NCBI GenBank assembly: GCA_025057015.1
Contig: JANWYG010000019.1
Span: forward strand, 1-64,000
Direction: 5' to 3'
DNA: 64,000 nucleotides
From: Blastocatellia bacterium
GTDB taxonomy: Bacteria; Acidobacteriota; Blastocatellia; Chloracidobacteriales; JADJPF01
A program made the translations under genes and the position numbers. How positions within the stretch are numbered: the first letter of the stretch is position 1; each line of letters starts with the position of its first letter. The notes beneath the pieces are model-generated. The model had not been told where the DNA came from. It did not search any database and worked only from the letters and a program-made list of their open reading frames with translations. Positions 35,974-49,597 of this stretch are shown piece by piece.

Positions 35974-35996
35974 CAATCTTTGATGAGCATTCTTAG

Positions 35997-36019
35997 AGAG
36001 GCACAAACACGGTGCCTCT
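35997..36019 (+). terminator. Possible terminator after the GDSL hydrolase
   Basis: AGAGGCAC (35997-36004) pairs with GTGCCTCT (36012-36019) around a 7-nt loop, 24 bases after the stop and followed by a pyrimidine tract (TCTCTCTCT). It directly abuts the repeat block, so it could instead be part of that element's edge. Confidence 0.45.
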
Positions 36020-36020
36020 T

Positions 36021-36545
<525 letters not shown>

Positions 36546-36717: not shown

Positions 36718-38106
36718 ATGAGTGGTATGGCTACACAAACCGACGTAGTGGAGTCGGCTAAGGCTGCTTCGTCGGGTACGTGGCTTGAGCAGTGGGAGCC
36801 AGAGAATGCAGAATTTTGGCGGAAAACCGGTAGTGCTATCGCTTGGAAAACTCTAACGATTACTACTACGACACTGGTTCTATCTTTCGCTACGTGGTTT
36901 ATGATGAGCGCAATAGTAGTTAGACTGCCCTCTATTGGTTTTAAATACGACACTATGCAGCTTTTCTGGCTGGCAGCGATGCCAGGTCTTGCTGGCGGAA
37001 CTCTCAGGATACTTCATACTTTTCTTATACCTATTTTTGGCTCTCGTCACGTGATCACTGTAGCTACACTTCTGAAGCTCTTTCCCTGCTTAGGAATAGG
37101 CCTAGCTGTGATGAATCCTGATACGCCGTTTTGGGTCTTTATGCTACTTGCCTTTGCAGCAGGCTTTGGTGGTGGTGACTTCTCGTCATATATGCCCAGT
37201 ACCAGTATTTTCTTCCCAAAGAGATTACAAGGTACAGCTCTTGGAATACAGGCTGGCATCGGTAATTTCGGAGTCAGCGTCGCTCAGTTTGTCACTCCTT
37301 GGATTATTAGTACCGCAGCACTTAGCACTTTCTTTGGCGGGCCGCAGACGTTTGTCAAAGATGGTAAAACTTCACAAATATGGTTGCAAAATGCAGCATT
37401 CTGTTACATCCCATTACTACTCATCATGGGTGTTGTAGCTTGGATATTCATTCGTAGCGTACCGGTTAAAGCTTCTTTCAAAGAGCAGTTGGATATATTC
37501 GGCAACAAACATACATGGTTTTGCACTATAACATACATAATGACATTTGGTTCTTTTTCCGGTTTTGCCGCTACCTTTCCACTGCTCATAAATACCGTTT
37601 ACGGTAAGTTTCCAGAAGCTCCCGATCCACTCAAATACGCGTTTCTAGGTCCTTTGATAGGCTCTACTTTTCGAGTAATTGCAGGGCCTATCTCAGATAA
37701 ATACGGTGGAGCTATCTTGACGCACATCGTAGGTATAGGGCTTATAGTCTTGAGCTTAGTAATGGTGTTTGGCGGACTACTTACGCCGACTTCGAGCGAG
37801 CAGTTCCCTGATTTTGTAATTGTGATGTTACTCATCTTCTTGCTTACTGGTGTGGGAAACGCTTCTACTTTCCGCCAATATCCAATCATCTTCTCACATA
37901 GTCCTAGGCAGGCTGCCGGGGTTATAGGCTGGACTGCTGCCGTAGCAGCTTATGGGCCGTTTATCTTCTCGCTGCTCATAGGATGGACAATTAAGCACAC
38001 AGGCTCTGCTAAGCCCTTCTTCCTAAGTATCGTCGTTTTCTATTTGGCAGCTACTGCTATCAATTGGTGGTATTACACGCGTAAGGGCTGTGAAAAGCCT
38101 AGTTAG
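36718..38106 (+). CDS. narK: Nitrate/nitrite MFS transporter, first of two NarK-like genes
   Basis: A 462-residue major-facilitator protein with 12 predicted helices, importing nitrate or exchanging it for nitrite. Family cues are VRLPSIGFKYDTMQLFWLAA in helix 1-2, GGGDFSSYMPSTSIFFPKRLQG and QAGIGNFGVSVAQF (nitrate-signature glycine-rich helices), and the GPISDKYGGA loop. The second half has a larger loop around 250-290 and GNASTFRQYP. GAGGAGG (36706-36712) precedes the ATG. It opens the nar operon and is followed after 6 bases by a second NarK-like gene. The transport mode (symport or antiport) cannot be told from sequence. Confidence 0.92.
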   Translation: MSGMATQTDVVESAKAASSGTWLEQWEPENAEFWRKTGSAIAWKTLTITTTTLVLSFATWFMMSAIVVRLPSIGFKYDTMQLFWLAAMPGLAGGTLRILHTFLIPIFGSRHVITVATLLKLFPCLGIGLAVMNPDTPFWVFMLLAFAAGFGGGDFSSYMPSTSIFFPKRLQGTALGIQAGIGNFGVSVAQFVTPWIISTAALSTFFGGPQTFVKDGKTSQIWLQNAAFCYIPLLLIMGVVAWIFIRSVPVKASFKEQLDIFGNKHTWFCTITYIMTFGSFSGFAATFPLLINTVYGKFPEAPDPLKYAFLGPLIGSTFRVIAGPISDKYGGAILTHIVGIGLIVLSLVMVFGGLLTPTSSEQFPDFVIVMLLIFLLTGVGNASTFRQYPIIFSHSPRQAAGVIGWTAAVAAYGPFIFSLLIGWTIKHTGSAKPFFLSIVVFYLAATAINWWYYTRKGCEKPS

Positions 38107-38112
38107 GAGGTT

Positions 38113-39465
38113 ATGTCAGTGGCACAAGATGCGGTAAATCAGCTTGAGTTTGCGCAAGAGTCTGTCTCGCAACGTAAGCGAGTGCTCATACTTTCAACTG
38201 CAGCATTCACTTTGATGTTTGCAGTTTGGCTAATGTTTGGTGTGCTTGCAATTCCAATAAGAAAGGAACTCAATCTCGACGATGCGCAATTTGCTTGGCT
38301 AACGGCCATAGCAATACTTAATGGCTCGATATGGCGTCTACTTACAGGAATACTTGCCGATAAATTTGGCGGACGTAGGGTCTTCATAGCACTGATACTG
38401 CTTACTGTTTTGCCAACTTATCTAGTCAGTCGTGCTACCTCTTTTAATGAACTGCTCTTATATGCTTTTCTTATAGGGCTTGCCGGTAACTCTTTCTCTG
38501 TGGGTATAGCTTGGAACTCAGCTTGGTATCCGCGCGAGCAGCAAGGTTTCGCTTTGGGTGTCTTTGGAGCTGGTAACGTTGGTGCTTCGGTTACCAAGTT
38601 GATAGGGCCGGCCATGATAGCTGCTGTCCCTGTAGCTGGTTACTACGACGGACTAATACCCGGAGGATGGCGCTTCATACCTTTTCTGTACTGCGTAATG
38701 CTGCTACTTACAGCTTTGTCGATGTGGTTATTTGCACCGCGTCAAGACAAAAAGCCTGCCGTAGGCAGATCTTTTCTAGACATGTGCAAACCCCTTAAAT
38801 ACGTCAGAGTCTGGCGCTTTAGCCTCTATTACGTAGTCGTATTTGGCGCCTATGTCGCCTTGTCCGTCTGGCTTCCAAAATACTATGTCGATGTATATAA
38901 CACTTCGCTTTCAACAGCTGCACTGCTTACAGCACTATTTATCTTCCCAGCAAGTTTGCTAAGACCTCTAGGAGGATATTTCTCTGACAAGTTTGGTGCA
39001 AGACGCGTCATGTACTGGATATTTGGCGTGATGTGCATAGCTACCTTGTTGCTATCTGCACCAAGTGGACACATTGTTCTTTACGTGCCAAATAAGTTTG
39101 ATCCCGATGGCATGCGGGAAGTACTTCCTTTTACGATGAATATCTACTGGTTCACCTTCCTAGTTTTCATAGTCGGCGTATGTATGGGCATAGGCAAGGC
39201 AGCTGTCTATAAATATATCCCTGAATACTTTCCAAATGATGTTGGAGCAGTCGGTGGCCTAGTGGGAATGCTAGGTGCACTTGGTGGATTTTTCTTGCCG
39301 CCTCTGTTTGCATTTTTCTTCCAACTGACTTGGATACCGCAGACAACTTTCTTTGTGCTCTTTTTGATTACAGCTGCAAGCTTTGCGTGGTTGCACCTGA
39401 CAGTACTTAAGTTGTTGCAGAAAGCTTCGCCTGAGTTATCACAAAAATTTGAGCATGCTAACTGA
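38113..39465 (+). CDS. narK: Nitrate/nitrite MFS transporter, second NarK-like gene
   Basis: A 450-residue MFS protein, 12 helices, distinct from the preceding paralogue. It has the family segments LNDAQFAWLTA-like (LNLDDAQFAWLTAIAILNG), GILADKFGGRRV, GLAGNSFSVGIAWNSAWYP and GAGNVGASVTKLIGP in the first half. YFSDKFGARRV and MGIGKAAVYKYIPEYFP lie in the second half. Tandem NarK1/NarK2 pairs beside narGHJI occur in Thermus and Paracoccus, where one acts mainly as nitrate/H+ symporter and the other as nitrate/nitrite antiporter. Which is which here is not resolved. Confidence 0.92.
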   Translation: MSVAQDAVNQLEFAQESVSQRKRVLILSTAAFTLMFAVWLMFGVLAIPIRKELNLDDAQFAWLTAIAILNGSIWRLLTGILADKFGGRRVFIALILLTVLPTYLVSRATSFNELLLYAFLIGLAGNSFSVGIAWNSAWYPREQQGFALGVFGAGNVGASVTKLIGPAMIAAVPVAGYYDGLIPGGWRFIPFLYCVMLLLTALSMWLFAPRQDKKPAVGRSFLDMCKPLKYVRVWRFSLYYVVVFGAYVALSVWLPKYYVDVYNTSLSTAALLTALFIFPASLLRPLGGYFSDKFGARRVMYWIFGVMCIATLLLSAPSGHIVLYVPNKFDPDGMREVLPFTMNIYWFTFLVFIVGVCMGIGKAAVYKYIPEYFPNDVGAVGGLVGMLGALGGFFLPPLFAFFFQLTWIPQTTFFVLFLITAASFAWLHLTVLKLLQKASPELSQKFEHAN

Positions 39466-39482: not shown

Positions 39483-40340
39483 ATGCTGAAAACGGTTAAA
39501 ACAGTGATACTGAGTTGTGTGTTGGTAGCTGCTTTGCTTCCGGCGCGTCATAATGCAACTGTGCAGCAGGTTTCTACTGATACTAAGGCTGTGGATGTGA
39601 CAGCAATTGATGCGTCAAGTAGCGAAACTGCTTCAAAGAGTCTGTCTCAAACCTCTGAAGACAAACCTGCGCAAGTTTATATAAAGAAGTGTGCAGGCTG
39701 CCATACCATAGGTAAAGGTCGTCTTACAGGGCCGGATCTCAATGAATCCATAGCCTGGGCTGAAAGTGATCTAGCACGTGCTGTGAAAGCTATGGAGAAA
39801 CACGTCGGACCGATCAGCGATGAGGAGGTCAACATGCTGGTTGGCTTCCTCAAAGATAAATCAGTTAGAGAGCGCATCAAAGCTGAGGAAGAACGCCTTG
39901 CGAAGGTTGTAGCTTCGAATTTGGTACCAGCTTCACCAGTGATAGGAGAATCACTTTACACCGGCAAAATGCGTTTGCAGAACGGAGGCCTGGCTTGCGC
40001 CACTTGCCATAGCGTTACTGGTGAAACTGGAATGCTGGGTCCGGATCTGAGCAGGGTCTATCAGAAGCTGGGAGAAGTGCCACTGCGGTCTTCTATAGAA
40101 AAAGCCAACTTTCGCGTGATGAGCGCAGCATATGCAGAACATCCTATTACTCAACAAGAAGCTTTGCATTTGACTGCATACCTTAAATCAATAACTCCGC
40201 AGCAGCAGAATACCACATCTATCTTTTTCTACGGTAGCATCGGAGCATTTTTCTGCACACTGCTGCTTGGATTTGCCGTGACAAACCGTGCAGCAGGTAC
40301 TCGCAAGAAACTGAGGAGGCGTCGCAATGTCCTGGATTAA
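39483..40340 (+). CDS. Membrane-anchored dihaem cytochrome c of the nar operon
   Basis: A 285-residue c-type cytochrome with an N-terminal signal peptide (about 1-22). Two haem sites follow, CAGCH (residues 70-74) and CATCH (172-176), each at the head of a class-I-like domain of about 100 residues with downstream [16 protein letters not shown] helices. A C-terminal transmembrane helix is at about 247-270. The globular domains face the periplasm. In position and haem count it resembles NarC, the dihaem cytochrome encoded upstream of narG in Thermus, although sequence kinship is not shown. It overlaps narG by 14 bp. Confidence 0.88.
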
Positions 40341-43965: not shown

Positions 43966-45456
43966 ATGAAGGTAAGAGCACAGATAGCGATGGTATTTCA
44001 CTTGGATAAGTGTATTGGGTGTCATACCTGTAGCGTGGCTTGTAAGAATATTTGGACTGATAGACCAGGTGCTGAGTACATGTGGTGGAACAACGTGGAA
44101 ACTAAACCGGGCACTGGATATCCTACTAAATGGGAAGACCAAGAGACTTATCGTGGAGGGTGGAAGAGAAGTAACGGCAGGCTAAAGCTGAGAGCTCAGG
44201 ACAAAGTAAGTGCTCTGCTAAAGCTCTTCTACGATCCCAATCAGCCAGGACTAGACGATTATTACGAACCTTGGACTTATCGCTACAGCGATTTATTTGA
44301 CGCACCCGAAGGTGATGATCAGCCTACGGCAAGACCAGTCTCGCTAATCACTGGCGAGTATATAGATATCGAAGCCGGACCTAATTGGGATGACGATCTT
44401 TCTGGCTCACCGGTCTACGCAGAGAACGATCCTAACCTGGATAAGCTCACCGAGGAGGAGCGAGCACAATTATTCGAGATTGAAAGAGTCTCGATGATGT
44501 ACTTGCCTAGGATCTGTAATCACTGTGCAAATCCTAGCTGTGTAGCTTCTTGTCCTTCAGGTGCCCTCTATAAGCGAGGCGAAGATGGAATAGTTCTTGT
44601 CAATCAAGAGAAGTGTCGCGGCTGGCGAGCTTGTATTTCAGCTTGTCCATATAAAAAAGTCTACTACAACTGGCAGACAGGAAAATCTGAAAAGTGCATT
44701 CTCTGTTATCCTCGTCTGGAAACCGGTCAAGCTCCTGCTTGTTTTCACTCTTGTGTCGGGCGTATCAGGTATATGGGTGTACTACTTGTTGACGCAGATC
44801 TGATACCAGAAGTAATGCAGGTACCTGATGAAGGATTAGTAGAAGCACAAAGGCGAGCACTTCTAGATCCCTATGATGAAAAGGTAGTCTCTGCAGCACT
44901 ACGTGCTGGAATAAGCGAAGAGTTTATCGAAGCAGCACAAAAATCTCCCGTATGGAAGTATGTCTGTGAGTGGAAATTGGCACTGCCACTTCATATTGAA
45001 TATAGGACTATGCCGATGCTTTTTTATGTGCCACCTCTGCTGCCTGTTATGGGTAAAGCTATTGGCAAGGCTTATAGTAACGCTACAGAAGCTTTGTTCA
45101 CTAGCCTTGAGCATTCTCGCCTTCCTATCAAATATCTAGCATCTCTCTTCAGCGCTGGAAATGAGGAAATCATCGTTGCCGTAATGAAAAAGCTGATGGC
45201 TGTGCGTTACTTCAAACGTGCTCAAGAGCTGGCAGATGTCTGTGCTGATGAAGTGCGTAAACTGTTGCGTGAAGCAGATCTTAGTCCCGAAGTTGCTGAA
45301 GAAATATACAAAATGACTGCACTGCCTACTGTCTATGAACGTTATGTGCTTCCACCTATACAGCGTGAAGAGATGATGGAAAGTTTCTGTGATCCTGACT
45401 TATGTAAAGGAACAGCAGGCGTGGAGTTAGTGCAACTTAACAGGAGGAGCTCATGA
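43966..45456 (+). CDS. narH: Respiratory nitrate reductase beta subunit
   Basis: A 496-residue iron-sulfur subunit carrying electrons from NarI to NarG. Four cysteine groups are visible: CIGCHTCSVAC, CNHCANPSCVASC, CRGWRACISAC and CILCYPRLETGQAPACFHSC. The tryptophan in CRGW replaces one cysteine and marks the [3Fe-4S] cluster, as in E. coli NarH. GGAGGAAAT precedes the ATG. The stop overlaps narJ by 4 bp. Confidence 0.97.
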   Translation: MKVRAQIAMVFHLDKCIGCHTCSVACKNIWTDRPGAEYMWWNNVETKPGTGYPTKWEDQETYRGGWKRSNGRLKLRAQDKVSALLKLFYDPNQPGLDDYYEPWTYRYSDLFDAPEGDDQPTARPVSLITGEYIDIEAGPNWDDDLSGSPVYAENDPNLDKLTEEERAQLFEIERVSMMYLPRICNHCANPSCVASCPSGALYKRGEDGIVLVNQEKCRGWRACISACPYKKVYYNWQTGKSEKCILCYPRLETGQAPACFHSCVGRIRYMGVLLVDADLIPEVMQVPDEGLVEAQRRALLDPYDEKVVSAALRAGISEEFIEAAQKSPVWKYVCEWKLALPLHIEYRTMPMLFYVPPLLPVMGKAIGKAYSNATEALFTSLEHSRLPIKYLASLFSAGNEEIIVAVMKKLMAVRYFKRAQELADVCADEVRKLLREADLSPEVAEEIYKMTALPTVYERYVLPPIQREEMMESFCDPDLCKGTAGVELVQLNRRSS

Positions 45457-45980
45457 CGCGCGTCATAGAAGGAATCAATAAGCAGATACTTGCCGGCTTT
45501 GCTCCGCTACTCGAATATCCGTCTCTTTTGACTATTTCTAATGCTATCTCTTGTAAAGAAAGCTGTAGCAGTGTCAGTACTGAGGCTGCAAGACATCTTA
45601 GCCACTTCGTTGACTGGCTAAGTGTTACTGAACTCTATGATGCCGAAGAGCTTTACACTCGAACTTTTTATGTAGCTCCTCTGTGTATTCCTTACGTGAG
45701 CGTGCATCTTTTCGGCGAGGAAAATTTTCGCAGAGGCGAGCTTATGGCACAGCTCAAAAGTGCTTTCTTAAGAGAAGGATTTGATCCGGGCAGCGAGTTG
45801 CCTGACCATATAGCTACGTTACTGAGATTCTGTGCATTCATCGACGAAGAAGAGCTAGAAGAACTACTGCATTACTGCATAGTGCCATCTGTTCGGGAGA
45901 TGAGTAAACAGTTTGAGGCTGCTCGTAATGCTTATTCACATATCTTCAAGGCCCTTGAAATTTTGTTTGCAGGAGGGTAG
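45453..45980 (+). CDS. narJ: Nitrate reductase assembly chaperone
   Basis: A 175-residue all-helical chaperone of the NarJ/TorD group that holds apo-NarG during molybdenum-cofactor insertion. Family cues are LLEYPSLL near the N-terminus, LSVTELYDAEELYTRTF and ELPDHIATLLRFCAFIDEEE. The gene is at the expected place between narH and narI, with AGGAGGAGC before its ATG and an ATGA overlap with narH. Confidence 0.93.
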   Translation: MTRVIEGINKQILAGFAPLLEYPSLLTISNAISCKESCSSVSTEAARHLSHFVDWLSVTELYDAEELYTRTFYVAPLCIPYVSVHLFGEENFRRGELMAQLKSAFLREGFDPGSELPDHIATLLRFCAFIDEEELEELLHYCIVPSVREMSKQFEAARNAYSHIFKALEILFAGG

Positions 45981-45982
45981 TT

Positions 45983-47296
45983 ATGGAATCCTTTTTATTC
46001 ATAGGTTTGCCTTATATTTCTATAGGCCTCTTCTTATTCGGTACAATAGCAAGGTTTCGCTCGTCGCTGTACAGCATTTCTTCGCAGTCATCGCAGTTCT
46101 TGGAGCATCGTGCTCTGCGGTGGGGCTCTACTGCATGGCACATAGGTATCATATTGATATTGCTAGCTCATATTGCTGTAGTACTGGCGCCGGGACTATG
46201 GACCGGCTTGATGTCTAACAAAACGATACTGTTAGTTACTGAGTCAACCGGTATAGCACTTTCTCTACTTTGCTTAATAGGAATATTGGTACTTGCTGTG
46301 CGTAGGTTGGTTTTTTCAAAAGTGCAAGCTGTAACTACTAACATGGATCTGGTAGTACTTGGGCTACTGTTTGTGCAAGTAGGTTTAGGTTTGGCTGTTG
46401 CGCTAAAGCATAAGTGGGGAGCAGCTTGGGCTACAGGAACAGTAGTGCCTTACCTTTGGAGCATACTGACGCTAAAGCCTAGAGCTGAGCTAGTGACTGA
46501 GATGCCGTTGCTTGTAAAAGCACACGTAGTCGGAGGTTTTGCTTTTATAGCTCTAATACCTTTTTCACGCTTGATACATATGTTAACAGCTCCGGTGCAT
46601 TATTTACTGCGTGAGCCACAACTTGTTGTCTGGAGCAATCTTTCTAGAACGCGTGAGGCAGTAATTGCACAAGCTTATGATTCGCGCAGATTCTTCTTGC
46701 GCGGTTTTGTTGCTACCGGAGCTGGAGCTACGATGCTTGCCGTGGGTGTGATGGACAAGCTCGTACGATTTTTCCAAGGGCCTAAGCTGAGTAAGGAGCA
46801 AGAAGCAGCTCTTATGGAGGAGAAACTGATAAGGATCAAGTCTACGGTAGAGCAGCGCGAATTGGAATATGAGCGACTTAAGAATGATTATATATACGTC
46901 TGCCGAGTATCGGATTTAGACGCGAGAGTGGGACGTTACTTTACAGACTTTGAAATGAGGCCTGCGTTAGCTTTCCGGGATGAAGATGGGTTACCACTTC
47001 TTATTTCGGCAAAGTGCACGCACCTGGGCTGCACCATAGCTAATGAATTGAGTGCTGATGGCAAAATACTTTGTCCTTGTCATATATCCTATTTTGATAT
47101 CAAAACTGGACAACCTAACGAAGGTTCACCTGCAAAGTCGCCGTTACCACACCTAGATTGGGTAATATTTGATTCTCAAGGTAACTTGCTGGCACAACGT
47201 AACTCTTCTGGTGTGACTATAGAAACCAAAGATCTTGCATTACTACTGCAGCAGGGCAGCCTCTATATAGTTAAGAATTTGGATAAAAGAGTTTGA
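45983..47296 (+). CDS. narI: NarI cytochrome b fused to a Rieske iron-sulfur domain
   Basis: 437 residues with two complete modules. Residues 1-210 are NarI, the dihaem membrane subunit that takes electrons from quinol. Candidate haem ligands H53, H63, H181 and H199 have the same 10- and 18-residue spacings as E. coli NarI, and the C-terminal segment PFSRLIHMLTAPVHYLLR is typical. After a short cytoplasmic linker comes SRRFFLR (234-240), a near-ideal twin-arginine motif, then a hydrophobic helix (241-262), a charged spacer and a Rieske domain. Its ligands are CTHLGC (345-350) and CPCHISYFD (364-372). No stop or frameshift separates the parts. The downstream gene is a full cytochrome b. Both modules look functional. 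Confidence 0.93.
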   Translation: MESFLFIGLPYISIGLFLFGTIARFRSSLYSISSQSSQFLEHRALRWGSTAWHIGIILILLAHIAVVLAPGLWTGLMSNKTILLVTESTGIALSLLCLIGILVLAVRRLVFSKVQAVTTNMDLVVLGLLFVQVGLGLAVALKHKWGAAWATGTVVPYLWSILTLKPRAELVTEMPLLVKAHVVGGFAFIALIPFSRLIHMLTAPVHYLLREPQLVVWSNLSRTREAVIAQAYDSRRFFLRGFVATGAGATMLAVGVMDKLVRFFQGPKLSKEQEAALMEEKLIRIKSTVEQRELEYERLKNDYIYVCRVSDLDARVGRYFTDFEMRPALAFRDEDGLPLLISAKCTHLGCTIANELSADGKILCPCHISYFDIKTGQPNEGSPAKSPLPHLDWVIFDSQGNLLAQRNSSGVTIETKDLALLLQQGSLYIVKNLDKRV

Positions 47297-47326
47297 TTTT
47301 GCTCTTTTAGCAGATTGGAGGTGCAT

Positions 47327-48418
47327 GTGTTTAGAGCCTTTTCCGATTTCTTGTCTGCTAGGTTTCCGGTCGAGAAGATGAACTTTAACGCTATGGTGGC
47401 CAAGAAAGAGGTGCCTGTGCATAAGATGAGCTGGGCATACTATCTTGGTGGTCTAAGTCTTTTCTTTCTTATTGTACAAGTGGTGACGGGTTTGATGTTG
47501 CTTTTCTACTACGAACCTACTGTAAGTGACGCGCATGCTTCTGTAGAGTTTATAACAAAACATGTAAGTGGTGGAGCACTTATCAGAAACATGCATTCTT
47601 GGTCAGCTTCGGCAATGATTTTTTGCGTCATGGCACATATGCTCACAGCTTTTGCTATGAAAGCTTTCGAACGACCTCGAGAGCTCATCTGGGTAACTGG
47701 CGTAATAATGTTGCTCTTAACTTTTACATTTGGCTTTACTGGCTACTTGCTGCCTTGGAATCAGATAGCGGTTAATGCGACAAAGGTGGGCTTACAGTCA
47801 ATCGAAGAAATAGGGACTTTTCTTCCTCAGTCTTTATCGACTTTGCCGCGGCTGATACGCGAAACCATACAAGGCGAGGCAAGTGTCGGACAAGCAACTC
47901 TTAGTAGGTTCTATGCTCTGCATGTCGTTGTATTACCACTTTTGATGTTCGCTGTATTGGCACTTCATTTGTTCTCCATACAGCTTCACGGAATGAGTAA
48001 GGGAGTAGACTCCGAGGTACGCAAAACTGAGAAGTTTTTCCCAGATTTTATGATCAAAGACCTCACTCTTTGGGGCGTTGTATTTTTAGTACTCTTCATA
48101 GTAGCGTTATGTTTACCATTTGAGTCTTTCTTCTCCTATCCCTTGAGTGAGCCTTACAATCCGCTGGGTTCTACACCTGAAGGTATTAAGCCAGAATGGT
48201 ACTTCTACTTTTTGTACTATCCGTTAGAGATGCTGCCTTTTTGGGTGGTGTTTCTGGTGACAAATGCTGCGGTTCTGGTACTGTTATTAGCTCCTTGGAT
48301 TTTTAGGGGCACTTCGCGTAGAACCTTGCGCGTGCTAGCAGTAGTAATCACTGCCTATCTAGTTCTGATGACGGTTTTCGGTGAGCAGATATATTACATC
48401 GTGAAGGGGGGACAATGA
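47327..48418 (+). CDS. b6f-type cytochrome b with fused subunit IV
   Basis: 363 residues from GTG 47327 (GGAGG at 47317-47321); the frame upstream begins at a TTG inside the site. Residues about 30-235 are a cytochrome b6 module with haem ligand pairs H90/H104 (13 residues between) and H199/H214 (14 between, as in b6-type proteins). Residues about 245-363 correspond to subunit IV, with the quinol-site motif PEWY. The cysteine that covalently binds haem c(i) in b6 (YCLGG) is tyrosine here (YYLGG). Together with the Rieske domain of the previous gene it could form a quinol:cytochrome c oxidoreductase. Confidence 0.92.
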   Translation: MFRAFSDFLSARFPVEKMNFNAMVAKKEVPVHKMSWAYYLGGLSLFFLIVQVVTGLMLLFYYEPTVSDAHASVEFITKHVSGGALIRNMHSWSASAMIFCVMAHMLTAFAMKAFERPRELIWVTGVIMLLLTFTFGFTGYLLPWNQIAVNATKVGLQSIEEIGTFLPQSLSTLPRLIRETIQGEASVGQATLSRFYALHVVVLPLLMFAVLALHLFSIQLHGMSKGVDSEVRKTEKFFPDFMIKDLTLWGVVFLVLFIVALCLPFESFFSYPLSEPYNPLGSTPEGIKPEWYFYFLYYPLEMLPFWVVFLVTNAAVLVLLLAPWIFRGTSRRTLRVLAVVITAYLVLMTVFGEQIYYIVKGGQ

Positions 48419-48993
48419 AACTTGTAGGGTATCTGATCTTTGCATTCTGGCTTAGTATTTCCGTATATGCATATCCTGAGTTTCAGAAATTTTCGCAGAT
48501 GAACTCAGGTCGTACAGTCAACTGTGCTATGTGTCATACACATCCCGACGGGCCTAACGGTGCTGCATTTGGGCAAATAGGTAGTCTCAATGCAGAGCAA
48601 ATAGAGCGCCTCAATCAAGCCCGTGCGGCTTTCGATCCAGGCAGGGATGTAAATAGCCCAATACTGAATGCTTTCGGTAATCACATCATCAAGACCTTAG
48701 GAAAGACGAAATTTTTAGAATACCGCAGCCGCCCAAAAGAACTTGCAACCGCCCTTGGCACTAGCAGCGATCTAGATGAAGACGGAGTGCCAGATGCCAG
48801 AGAGTACCTTGAAGGAACTCATCCGCTCAACAAGGCTAATGGTAATCCTTGGTTGCTGTTTGTACATAACTTCAAGCGAAATAAAGTACACGTAGTCCTA
48901 ATCTTTTTAGCTACTGTGGTTACAATTTACGGCCTAGTGAATCTCCTGCGGGGAGCCCATGCTGCACACGAACTCAGCCAACTCAAGAAATAG
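48415..48993 (+). CDS. Membrane-anchored monohaem cytochrome c
   Basis: A 192-residue exported cytochrome. Signal peptide residues 1-20, single haem site CAMCH at 37-41, a calcium-loop-like segment DLDEDGVPDAREY (about 123-135) of the thrombospondin-3/EF-hand kind, and a C-terminal helix (about 160-178) anchoring it to the membrane. It overlaps the cytochrome b stop (ATGA), so it is the last gene of the nar operon and a good candidate for the c-type subunit of the b/Rieske unit. It lacks similarity that I can recognise to cytochrome c1 or f. Confidence 0.87.
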   Translation: MKLVGYLIFAFWLSISVYAYPEFQKFSQMNSGRTVNCAMCHTHPDGPNGAAFGQIGSLNAEQIERLNQARAAFDPGRDVNSPILNAFGNHIIKTLGKTKFLEYRSRPKELATALGTSSDLDEDGVPDAREYLEGTHPLNKANGNPWLLFVHNFKRNKVHVVLIFLATVVTIYGLVNLLRGAHAAHELSQLKK

Positions 48994-49089: not shown

Positions 49090-49470
49090 ATGCAGCTTCC
49101 GCTTTTGGAGAAAGAGGATTATCGGCGGGGACTAGGGCTGATAGAAGTAAATACATCTATCGTTCCAGATGCTTCTCGAATCACACCGCCGCGCCTGGCA
49201 GATGGTTTCGATCCAAAGGTGAGCCTTTCGATAGAAGTAGAGCTGCTTAGCCGTGCCTCTGAACTTGCCTGCTCCCAGCATGCCGTCAGAACTGAAACTT
49301 CTGAAGGTCTGATCAGAGTGAGCCTAGCCCATACTGATGAACGGCTTAATCGTGACTTTGTGTTCTCTGTGTCTCTGTGGTGGAAAAATAAAATAAACCA
49401 CAGAGACACAAAGGACACAGAGGAAGCACAAAGAGTAGAGCACAGAGAACAAAGGAAGCAGAAGGAGTAG
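49090..49470 (+). CDS. Small unknown protein whose 3' end runs into a repeat
   Basis: The frame encodes 126 residues from ATG 49090, with a good GGAAGG site. The first about 90 residues (QLPLLEKEDYRRGLGLIEVN ... SLSIEVELLSRASELA ... GLIRVSLAHTDERLNR) look like ordinary coding sequence. From about 49357 the frame enters a CACAGAGACAC-type repeat and the remaining 36 residues are repeat translation (KINHRDTKDTEEAQRVEH). The original C-terminus has therefore been lost or replaced. No family recognised; it may be a truncated remnant. Confidence 0.45.
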   Translation: MQLPLLEKEDYRRGLGLIEVNTSIVPDASRITPPRLADGFDPKVSLSIEVELLSRASELACSQHAVRTETSEGLIRVSLAHTDERLNRDFVFSVSLWWKNKINHRDTKDTEEAQRVEHREQRKQKE

Positions 49471-49597
49471 AATACAGAGGACACAAAGGGCACAGGGAGT
49501 GCACAAGAGGAGGCAGGTGGAGGCAGAAGGAAGTCAAGGAAACTTTGTGAATCTTTGTGTTCTCTGTGTCTCTGTGGTGGAAAAATAGAATAAACCG
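49357..49597. repeat. CACAGAGACAC-type palindromic repeat block 2
   Basis: One complete hairpin core (49369-49380 pairing with 49398-49409, A/T-rich spacer between) and a second half core (49566-49577) cut off just after the spacer at TAAACCG. The sequence between contains the GGAGGCAGGTGGAGG...GGAAACTTTGTGAATC unit that is also found twice in block 3. The block overlaps the 3' end of the small gene at 49090. The rest of the gap to 49725 holds only the half-site cluster at 49658-49699. Confidence 0.88.

Follow-up and report, generated by a model that had tools for sequence, protein, structure and literature searches.

A NarI-Rieske fusion within a nitrate reductase operon suggests a covalently tied Nar-bc complex

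The window, a stretch of 64,000 nucleotides from a Blastocatellia bacterium, contains a gene in which the nitrate reductase subunit NarI is fused in frame to a Rieske protein, directly 5' of a cytochrome b gene and a c-type cytochrome gene. We favour, with moderate confidence, a reading in which the products form one covalently tied Nar-bc membrane complex: its cytochrome b/Rieske part would oxidise quinol, and the electrons would pass via c-type and NarI haems to nitrate. Each domain is already known. What seems new is the NarI-Rieske joint, and it occurs in a NarI that fails one classical mark of its family, the basic residue of the quinol site. No description of the fusion came to light in the papers searched for Rieske together with NarI, with the gamma subunit of nitrate reductase, or with Melainabacteria.

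The genes formed an apparent operon, narK-narK-narC-narG-narH-narJ-[narI::Rieske]-cytochrome b-c-type cytochrome, in which neighbouring genes overlap or almost touch. The genes on either side of the fusion were as follows.

36718..38106 (+), narK-type nitrate/nitrite transporter 1 (NarK/NarU NCBIfam matches, E 1e-83 to 1e-86, below cut-offs)
38113..39465 (+), narK-type nitrate/nitrite transporter 2 (TIGR00886, E 5e-66, below cut-off)
39483..40340 (+), narC, membrane-anchored dihaem cytochrome c, homologue of Thermus NarC (two CxxCH; Thermus plasmid matches)
40327..43941 (+), narG, catalytic subunit (TIGR01580, 1516 bits, cut-off 1084)
43966..45456 (+), narH, iron-sulfur subunit (TIGR01660, 638 bits, cut-off 524)
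45453..45980 (+), narJ chaperone (PF02613 above cut-off; TIGR00684, 57.4 bits, cut-off 59.35)
47315..48418 (+), cytochrome b, 367 aa, two His pairs and PEWY (PF00033, E 8e-44; alignment)
48415..48993 (+), membrane-anchored one-haem c-type cytochrome, candidate cytochrome c1 counterpart (invariant CxxCH, C-terminal helix, gene-neighbour conservation)

The N-terminus of NarG was of the cytoplasmic type, and no Tat signal was seen on it by inspection. When narC was compared with a plasmid collection of 72,556 records, matches were found only in Thermus (pairwise E 8e-16). Similar repetitive sequence lay on both flanks of the nar cluster, at 35993-36540 and 49119-49493 (translated, HHRDTENTEIHRE / SLCSTLCASFVSF), possibly a repeat element bracketing the cluster.

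The fused gene itself was divided into the following parts.

45983..47296 (+), narI::Rieske fusion gene, 437 aa (open frame, Pfam, alignment of fused homologues)
45983..46648 (+), NarI part, residues 1-222, hydrophobic at E. coli position 86 (Pfam, alignments)
46685..46750 (+), internal twin-arginine motif R235 R236 and sixth helix to residue 256 (alignment; RR in 22/23 fused homologues)
46793..46882 (+), long helical linker, residues 271-300 (AlphaFold2 model; same region in stand-alone Rieske proteins)
46892..47149 (+), Rieske [2Fe-2S] domain, residues 304-389 (PF00355; PDB matches)

The frame was open throughout its 437 residues, without a stop. The Pfam domain Nitrate_red_gam covered residues 3-217 (E 5.6e-59) and Rieske PF00355 covered residues 304-389 (E 1.7e-9), both above the curated cut-offs; the score against NCBIfam narI also exceeded its cut-off. 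In the alignment, H56, H66, H187, and H205 of E. coli NarI corresponded to H53, H63, H181, and H199 of the window protein, and these four ligands of two b haems did not vary among 23 fused homologues. The same 23 sequences also agreed throughout at the Rieske positions C345, H347, C350, C364, C366, and H367, and the C-x-H-xx-C plus C-x-C-H ligand pattern was present. The preliminary description had read the frame as a complete NarI followed by a complete Rieske domain, and the Pfam matches and invariant ligands bear this out; the spacings of 10 and 18 that it gave for the NarI histidines are also correct. It did not mention the interdomain twin-arginine signal with its sixth helix, narC, the c-type cytochrome 3' of cytochrome b, or the loss of the basic residue at the quinol site.

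The Rieske box of the fused proteins contained invariant Ser369 and Phe371. The corresponding residues are Ser and Tyr in the bc1 Rieske box, and we found Ser and Phe in QcrA of C. glutamicum, as in the fused proteins. The Ser/Phe box would fit a menaquinone-level potential. The PDB matches of the Rieske half were Rieske proteins of known structure from bc1, b6f, and actinobacterial QcrA. The AlphaFold2 model of the whole protein (mean pLDDT 80, pTM 0.47) had E. coli NarI (1q16 and mutants) as its best structural match, and its C-terminal half matched Rieske folds; at so low a pTM, the relative placement of the two halves is not fixed by the model.

Full-length NarI-Rieske fusions were found in 24 genomes of three phylum-level groups, and one further fusion (L123) was cut by a contig end. 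The window genome and G017, of the same class, were the only two carriers among 396 genomes of their phylum. The fusion was present in 20 of 240 genomes of the class containing an Obscuribacterales (Melainabacteria) record, and in two genomes of a third group (G511, locus L003, and G1124), which we infer to be a phylum other than that of the window. The order narC-narG-narH-narJ-[narI::Rieske]-cytochrome b-c-type cytochrome was identical in all fused loci as far as the contigs extend, with narC not recognised in one of them (L078). The architecture recurs beside narGHJ in 24 genomes, and the earlier suggestion that the fusion links nitrate reductase to a bc-type complex is also supported. Two findings had been named that would speak against the fusion, a stop codon within residues 210-240 and homologues invariably split over two genes; both were looked for, and we found an open frame and full-length fusions instead. 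It is next to inconceivable that two separate genes of the cell were joined by assembly or annotation: the 24 cases come from independent assemblies, the junction is conserved among the fused homologues, and the window gene has no start codon for a free Rieske protein upstream of its twin-arginine motif. The same fusion in 24 genomes, at 44-58% identity to the window protein, excludes chance or assembly error.

In the NarI tree, the fused proteins formed one clade on one side of a branch with SH-aLRT 94, so that a single origin, followed by transfer or descent into the three phylum-level groups, is the simplest account. In three genomes (loci L066, L067, and L068), a Rieske protein of this type had its own gene, immediately 5' of the same cytochrome b and c-type genes; L066 and L068 had more cytochrome c genes nearby. 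In the cytochrome b tree, which had distant outgroups, these three free-standing operons nested inside the fused set, with enclosing branches of SH-aLRT 99 and 100. Their nesting tentatively suggests, given the distance of the outgroups, that a Nar-bound bc complex was later detached; the opposite order, with the free-standing operons ancestral to the fusion, is not favoured by this tree.

Alignment with the three stand-alone proteins indicated that the fused protein comprises NarI, a linker, and a whole stand-alone Rieske protein, N-terminal twin-arginine anchor included. Because this anchor is retained, an internal Tat signal is predicted in the fusion, and the existence of stand-alone operons with cytochrome b and c-type genes argues that the fused Rieske protein is part of a whole bc complex. 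The twin-arginine motif was RR in 22 of 23 fused homologues and KR in one, directly ahead of the last helix and with the cofactor domain after it. In the window protein, the Tat helix had a hydrophobicity of 1.44, below the 1.96-2.62 reached at the main peaks of the NarI helices. Translation of a free Rieske protein from an internal start was considered and rejected, the only such codon in the window gene being TTG239, downstream of the Tat motif.

The C-terminal end of E. coli NarI is established to lie in the cytoplasm. With the NarI part of the fusion ending on the same side after its five helices, the internal twin-arginine signal would insert the sixth helix and place the folded Rieske head on the periplasmic face of the membrane, the face on which NarI haem bD and the cytochrome b Qo site are also expected. 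A similar layout is known from actinobacterial QcrA, a dual Sec/Tat protein (Tooke et al., PMC5449189), which also has an internal twin-arginine motif before its last helix, an outside Rieske head, and Ser...Phe in the cluster box; the low hydrophobicity of the Tat helix is likewise shared with the dual Sec/Tat proteins of that paper. QcrA, however, has two helices ahead of the motif, whereas the fusion has five haem-binding NarI helices, and NarI is unmentioned in the paper. If our reading is right, the fusion is a new kind of internally Tat-targeted membrane protein, with five haem-binding helices ahead of the Tat helix.

In the NarGHI literature, Lys86 of E. coli NarI is assigned to the quinol site. 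Structures 1y5i (K86A) and 1y4z (with a Q-site inhibitor) were among the structural matches of the AlphaFold2 model. Of 40 unfused NarIs (E. coli, 10 from a Pseudomonadota sample, Thermus, and 28 from relatives and Melainabacteria), 39 had Lys or Arg at this position; of 25 fused ones (L130 included as the 25th), none did, and the residue was always hydrophobic (V, I, L, F, A, or M). A Fisher test on the basic residue gave 4e-17 for fused versus unfused, a value that overstates the evidence because the fused set is one clade and the loss may be a single event, of which the fusion need not be the cause. Genome G017 had both kinds of NarI, and its unfused one, beside an alternative complex III, retained Arg. 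Gly was found in the unfused NarI of G579 (L120/L126), which was on a long branch sister to the fused set and had no bc complex nearby. A shifted Lys or Arg substituting for K86 was rejected, as the fused NarIs shared no conserved basic residue within eight positions of this site.

In the adjacent cytochrome b, the two His pairs and the PEWY quinol-oxidation motif were kept in 14 of 14 aligned sequences, from which one would expect a working Qo site. Combined with the loss of the basic residue in the fused NarIs, this suggests that quinol is oxidised in the bc part and that NarI has turned into an electron relay. The preliminary description had proposed as a possibility that NarI and the bc part both draw on one quinol pool; this is disfavoured by the same two observations, the loss extending to 25/25 fused NarIs. 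They also bear on the idea that NarI reduces the Rieske head directly, making Nar an alternative quinol:cytochrome c reductase (an electron overflow) when nitrate is scarce. A proposal of this kind has been outlined for Thermus NarC (PMC7694296), but it requires quinol oxidation by a NarI whose site has lost the basic residue, and it would leave no need for a complete, PEWY-bearing cytochrome b; we regard it as very improbable.

Inspection of the alignment showed Tyr in place of the haem-ci cysteine of cytochrome b6, which is absent from this cytochrome b. A one-haem c-type gene adjoined cytochrome b in every locus whose contig covers that place. The c-type cytochrome of the window (48415-48993) and its homologues had no invariant Met or His as distal ligand in the alignment, and a calcium-loop-like DxDxDGxxDxxE was seen. 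The probable mature N-terminus, (Y/F)P.F...SGR.VNCAMCH, was like that of cytochrome f, in which the N-terminal amine binds haem. Identity with cytochrome f was nevertheless rejected: the PDB profile search was empty and the predicted model was helical, unlike cytochrome f.

The window genome also contained a second, separate Rieske/cytochrome b pair (L128:8820-12834, G000:C13), adjoining a protein that combines a c-type haem domain with a part resembling cytochrome bd subunit I. With such a pair available, the fused one is probably dedicated to nitrate. The alternative is a shared scaffold with parallel functions, in which NarI oxidises quinol at an altered site, the tethered Rieske protein serves a bc complex feeding other acceptors (oxidase, nitrite, NO, or N2O reductases) via NarC, and the fusion merely co-assembles the two. 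The intact haem ligands of NarI are in keeping with such an arrangement, as is the view that Thermus NarC hands electrons to nitrite and NO reductases (PMC7694296). We nevertheless hold it to be unlikely, albeit the most serious of the rivals, since the quinol-site basic residue is absent in all fused NarIs and the second Rieske/cytochrome b pair could serve the other uses.

In the covalently tied Nar-bc complex that we favour, cytoplasm-facing NarGH would be joined to a bc-type quinol oxidase made of cytochrome b, the Rieske protein, and the membrane cytochrome c, with the single NarI-Rieske chain as the covalent bond between them. The Rieske head would be close to cytochrome b and the periplasmic haem bD of NarI. 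Menaquinol would be oxidised at the Qo site of cytochrome b. The first electron would pass from the Rieske head to c-type haems (the membrane cytochrome c of the operon, NarC) and on to haem bD, then through bP, NarH, and NarG to nitrate, while the second would be recycled through cytochrome b in a Q-cycle. NarI, without a quinol site of its own, would be an electron wire. By the usual charge count, direct quinol oxidation by NarGHI translocates 2 charges per nitrate, and the bc complex plus transmembrane transfer through NarI would translocate ~ 4. We judge the chances evenly balanced that Nar has in this way ceased to be a quinol oxidase and become the terminal reductase of a covalently attached bc complex, coupling cytoplasmic nitrate reduction to a full Q-cycle with ~ 4 instead of 2 charges per nitrate. 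We must also note a point against our main reading: with E. coli potentials, haem bD would be a low-potential acceptor for electrons arriving from c-type haems.

Electron flow in either direction is compatible with the loss of the quinol site. NarG could be an NXR-like enzyme oxidising nitrite, with electrons leaving via NarI to NarC, the Rieske protein, and an oxidase. One paper (PMC6349859) annotates a comparable Melainabacteria operon, with petB and narK after it, as nitrite oxidoreductase (NXR); the passages found make no mention of a NarI-Rieske fusion, and the operon, visible there in part, is very probably of the same type. A similar cluster occurs in Nitrobacter (PMC7694296). However, NarG and NarH scored above the cut-offs of nitrate reductase models (which may not separate NXR), and many clusters were flanked by two narK-type transporters. 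Moreover, electrons from nitrite would have to run strongly uphill, given a dedicated cytochrome b competent in Qo-site chemistry and a Rieske box whose potential is probably at the level of menaquinone. We consider this reverse direction quite improbable.

Further ties between nar clusters and cytochrome c reductases were seen. In relatives with unfused NarI, narC-narGHJI was followed by alternative complex III-like genes (L037, L038, and L039 by inspection, with the domains of L038 confirmed). In G567 (L127:50-2372), a Rieske gene preceded a cytochrome b fused to NarC-related c-type haem domains and then narGHJI; its NarI was unfused and retained Arg at the quinol site. Nar clusters are thus associated with three different cytochrome c reductases, a convergence that speaks for a functional connection of quinol:cytochrome c reductase with Nar.

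The closest known systems share parts of this arrangement. Nitrate reductase A of E. coli has NarG, NarH, NarJ, and the four NarI haem ligands in common with the window, but it lacks narC, Rieske, and cytochrome b, and its NarI has the Lys86 that is lost in the fusion. In haloarchaeal-type nar operons, nitrate reductase is encoded with Rieske and cytochrome b; there, NarG is outward-facing and the latter two are separate genes, whereas the window has a cytoplasmic-type NarG and a NarI that is present and fused. In the one Thermus plasmid record that we opened, narC was directly 5' of narGHJI, as in the window, but NarI ended after the gamma domain (229 aa) and had Arg at the quinol site, and no Rieske or cytochrome b lay within the stretch viewed. 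In Thermus, NarC is considered the fourth enzyme subunit, and it contacts NarI in two-hybrid assays (PMC7694296). Nar1 of Streptomyces coelicolor requires, and co-purifies with, the bcc-aa3 supercomplex (PMC7931247). This nitrate reductase is also tied to a bcc complex, functionally and probably physically, but through separate genes at separate loci, with no fusion. Falke et al. (PMC7931247) proposed transfer from the c-type subunit of the Streptomyces bcc complex to haem bD of NarI and judged Q-cycle coupling feasible in principle. The fusion and the lost quinol residue are independent genetic evidence, from other phyla, for this idea.

The dependence of Streptomyces Nar1 on bcc-aa3 has raised the question of whether the electrons for NarGHI may come from a bc complex rather than from quinol. 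The fusion, together with the removal of the quinol-site residue, provides a genetic argument for a bc-fed Nar, and one operon with one polypeptide is a compact object for testing it. If our reading is right, the energy yield of nitrate respiration would vary ~ 2-fold between lineages, which would be relevant to denitrification models, and the operon suggests that nitrate respiration in these deep bacterial groups conserves more energy than the textbook enzyme.
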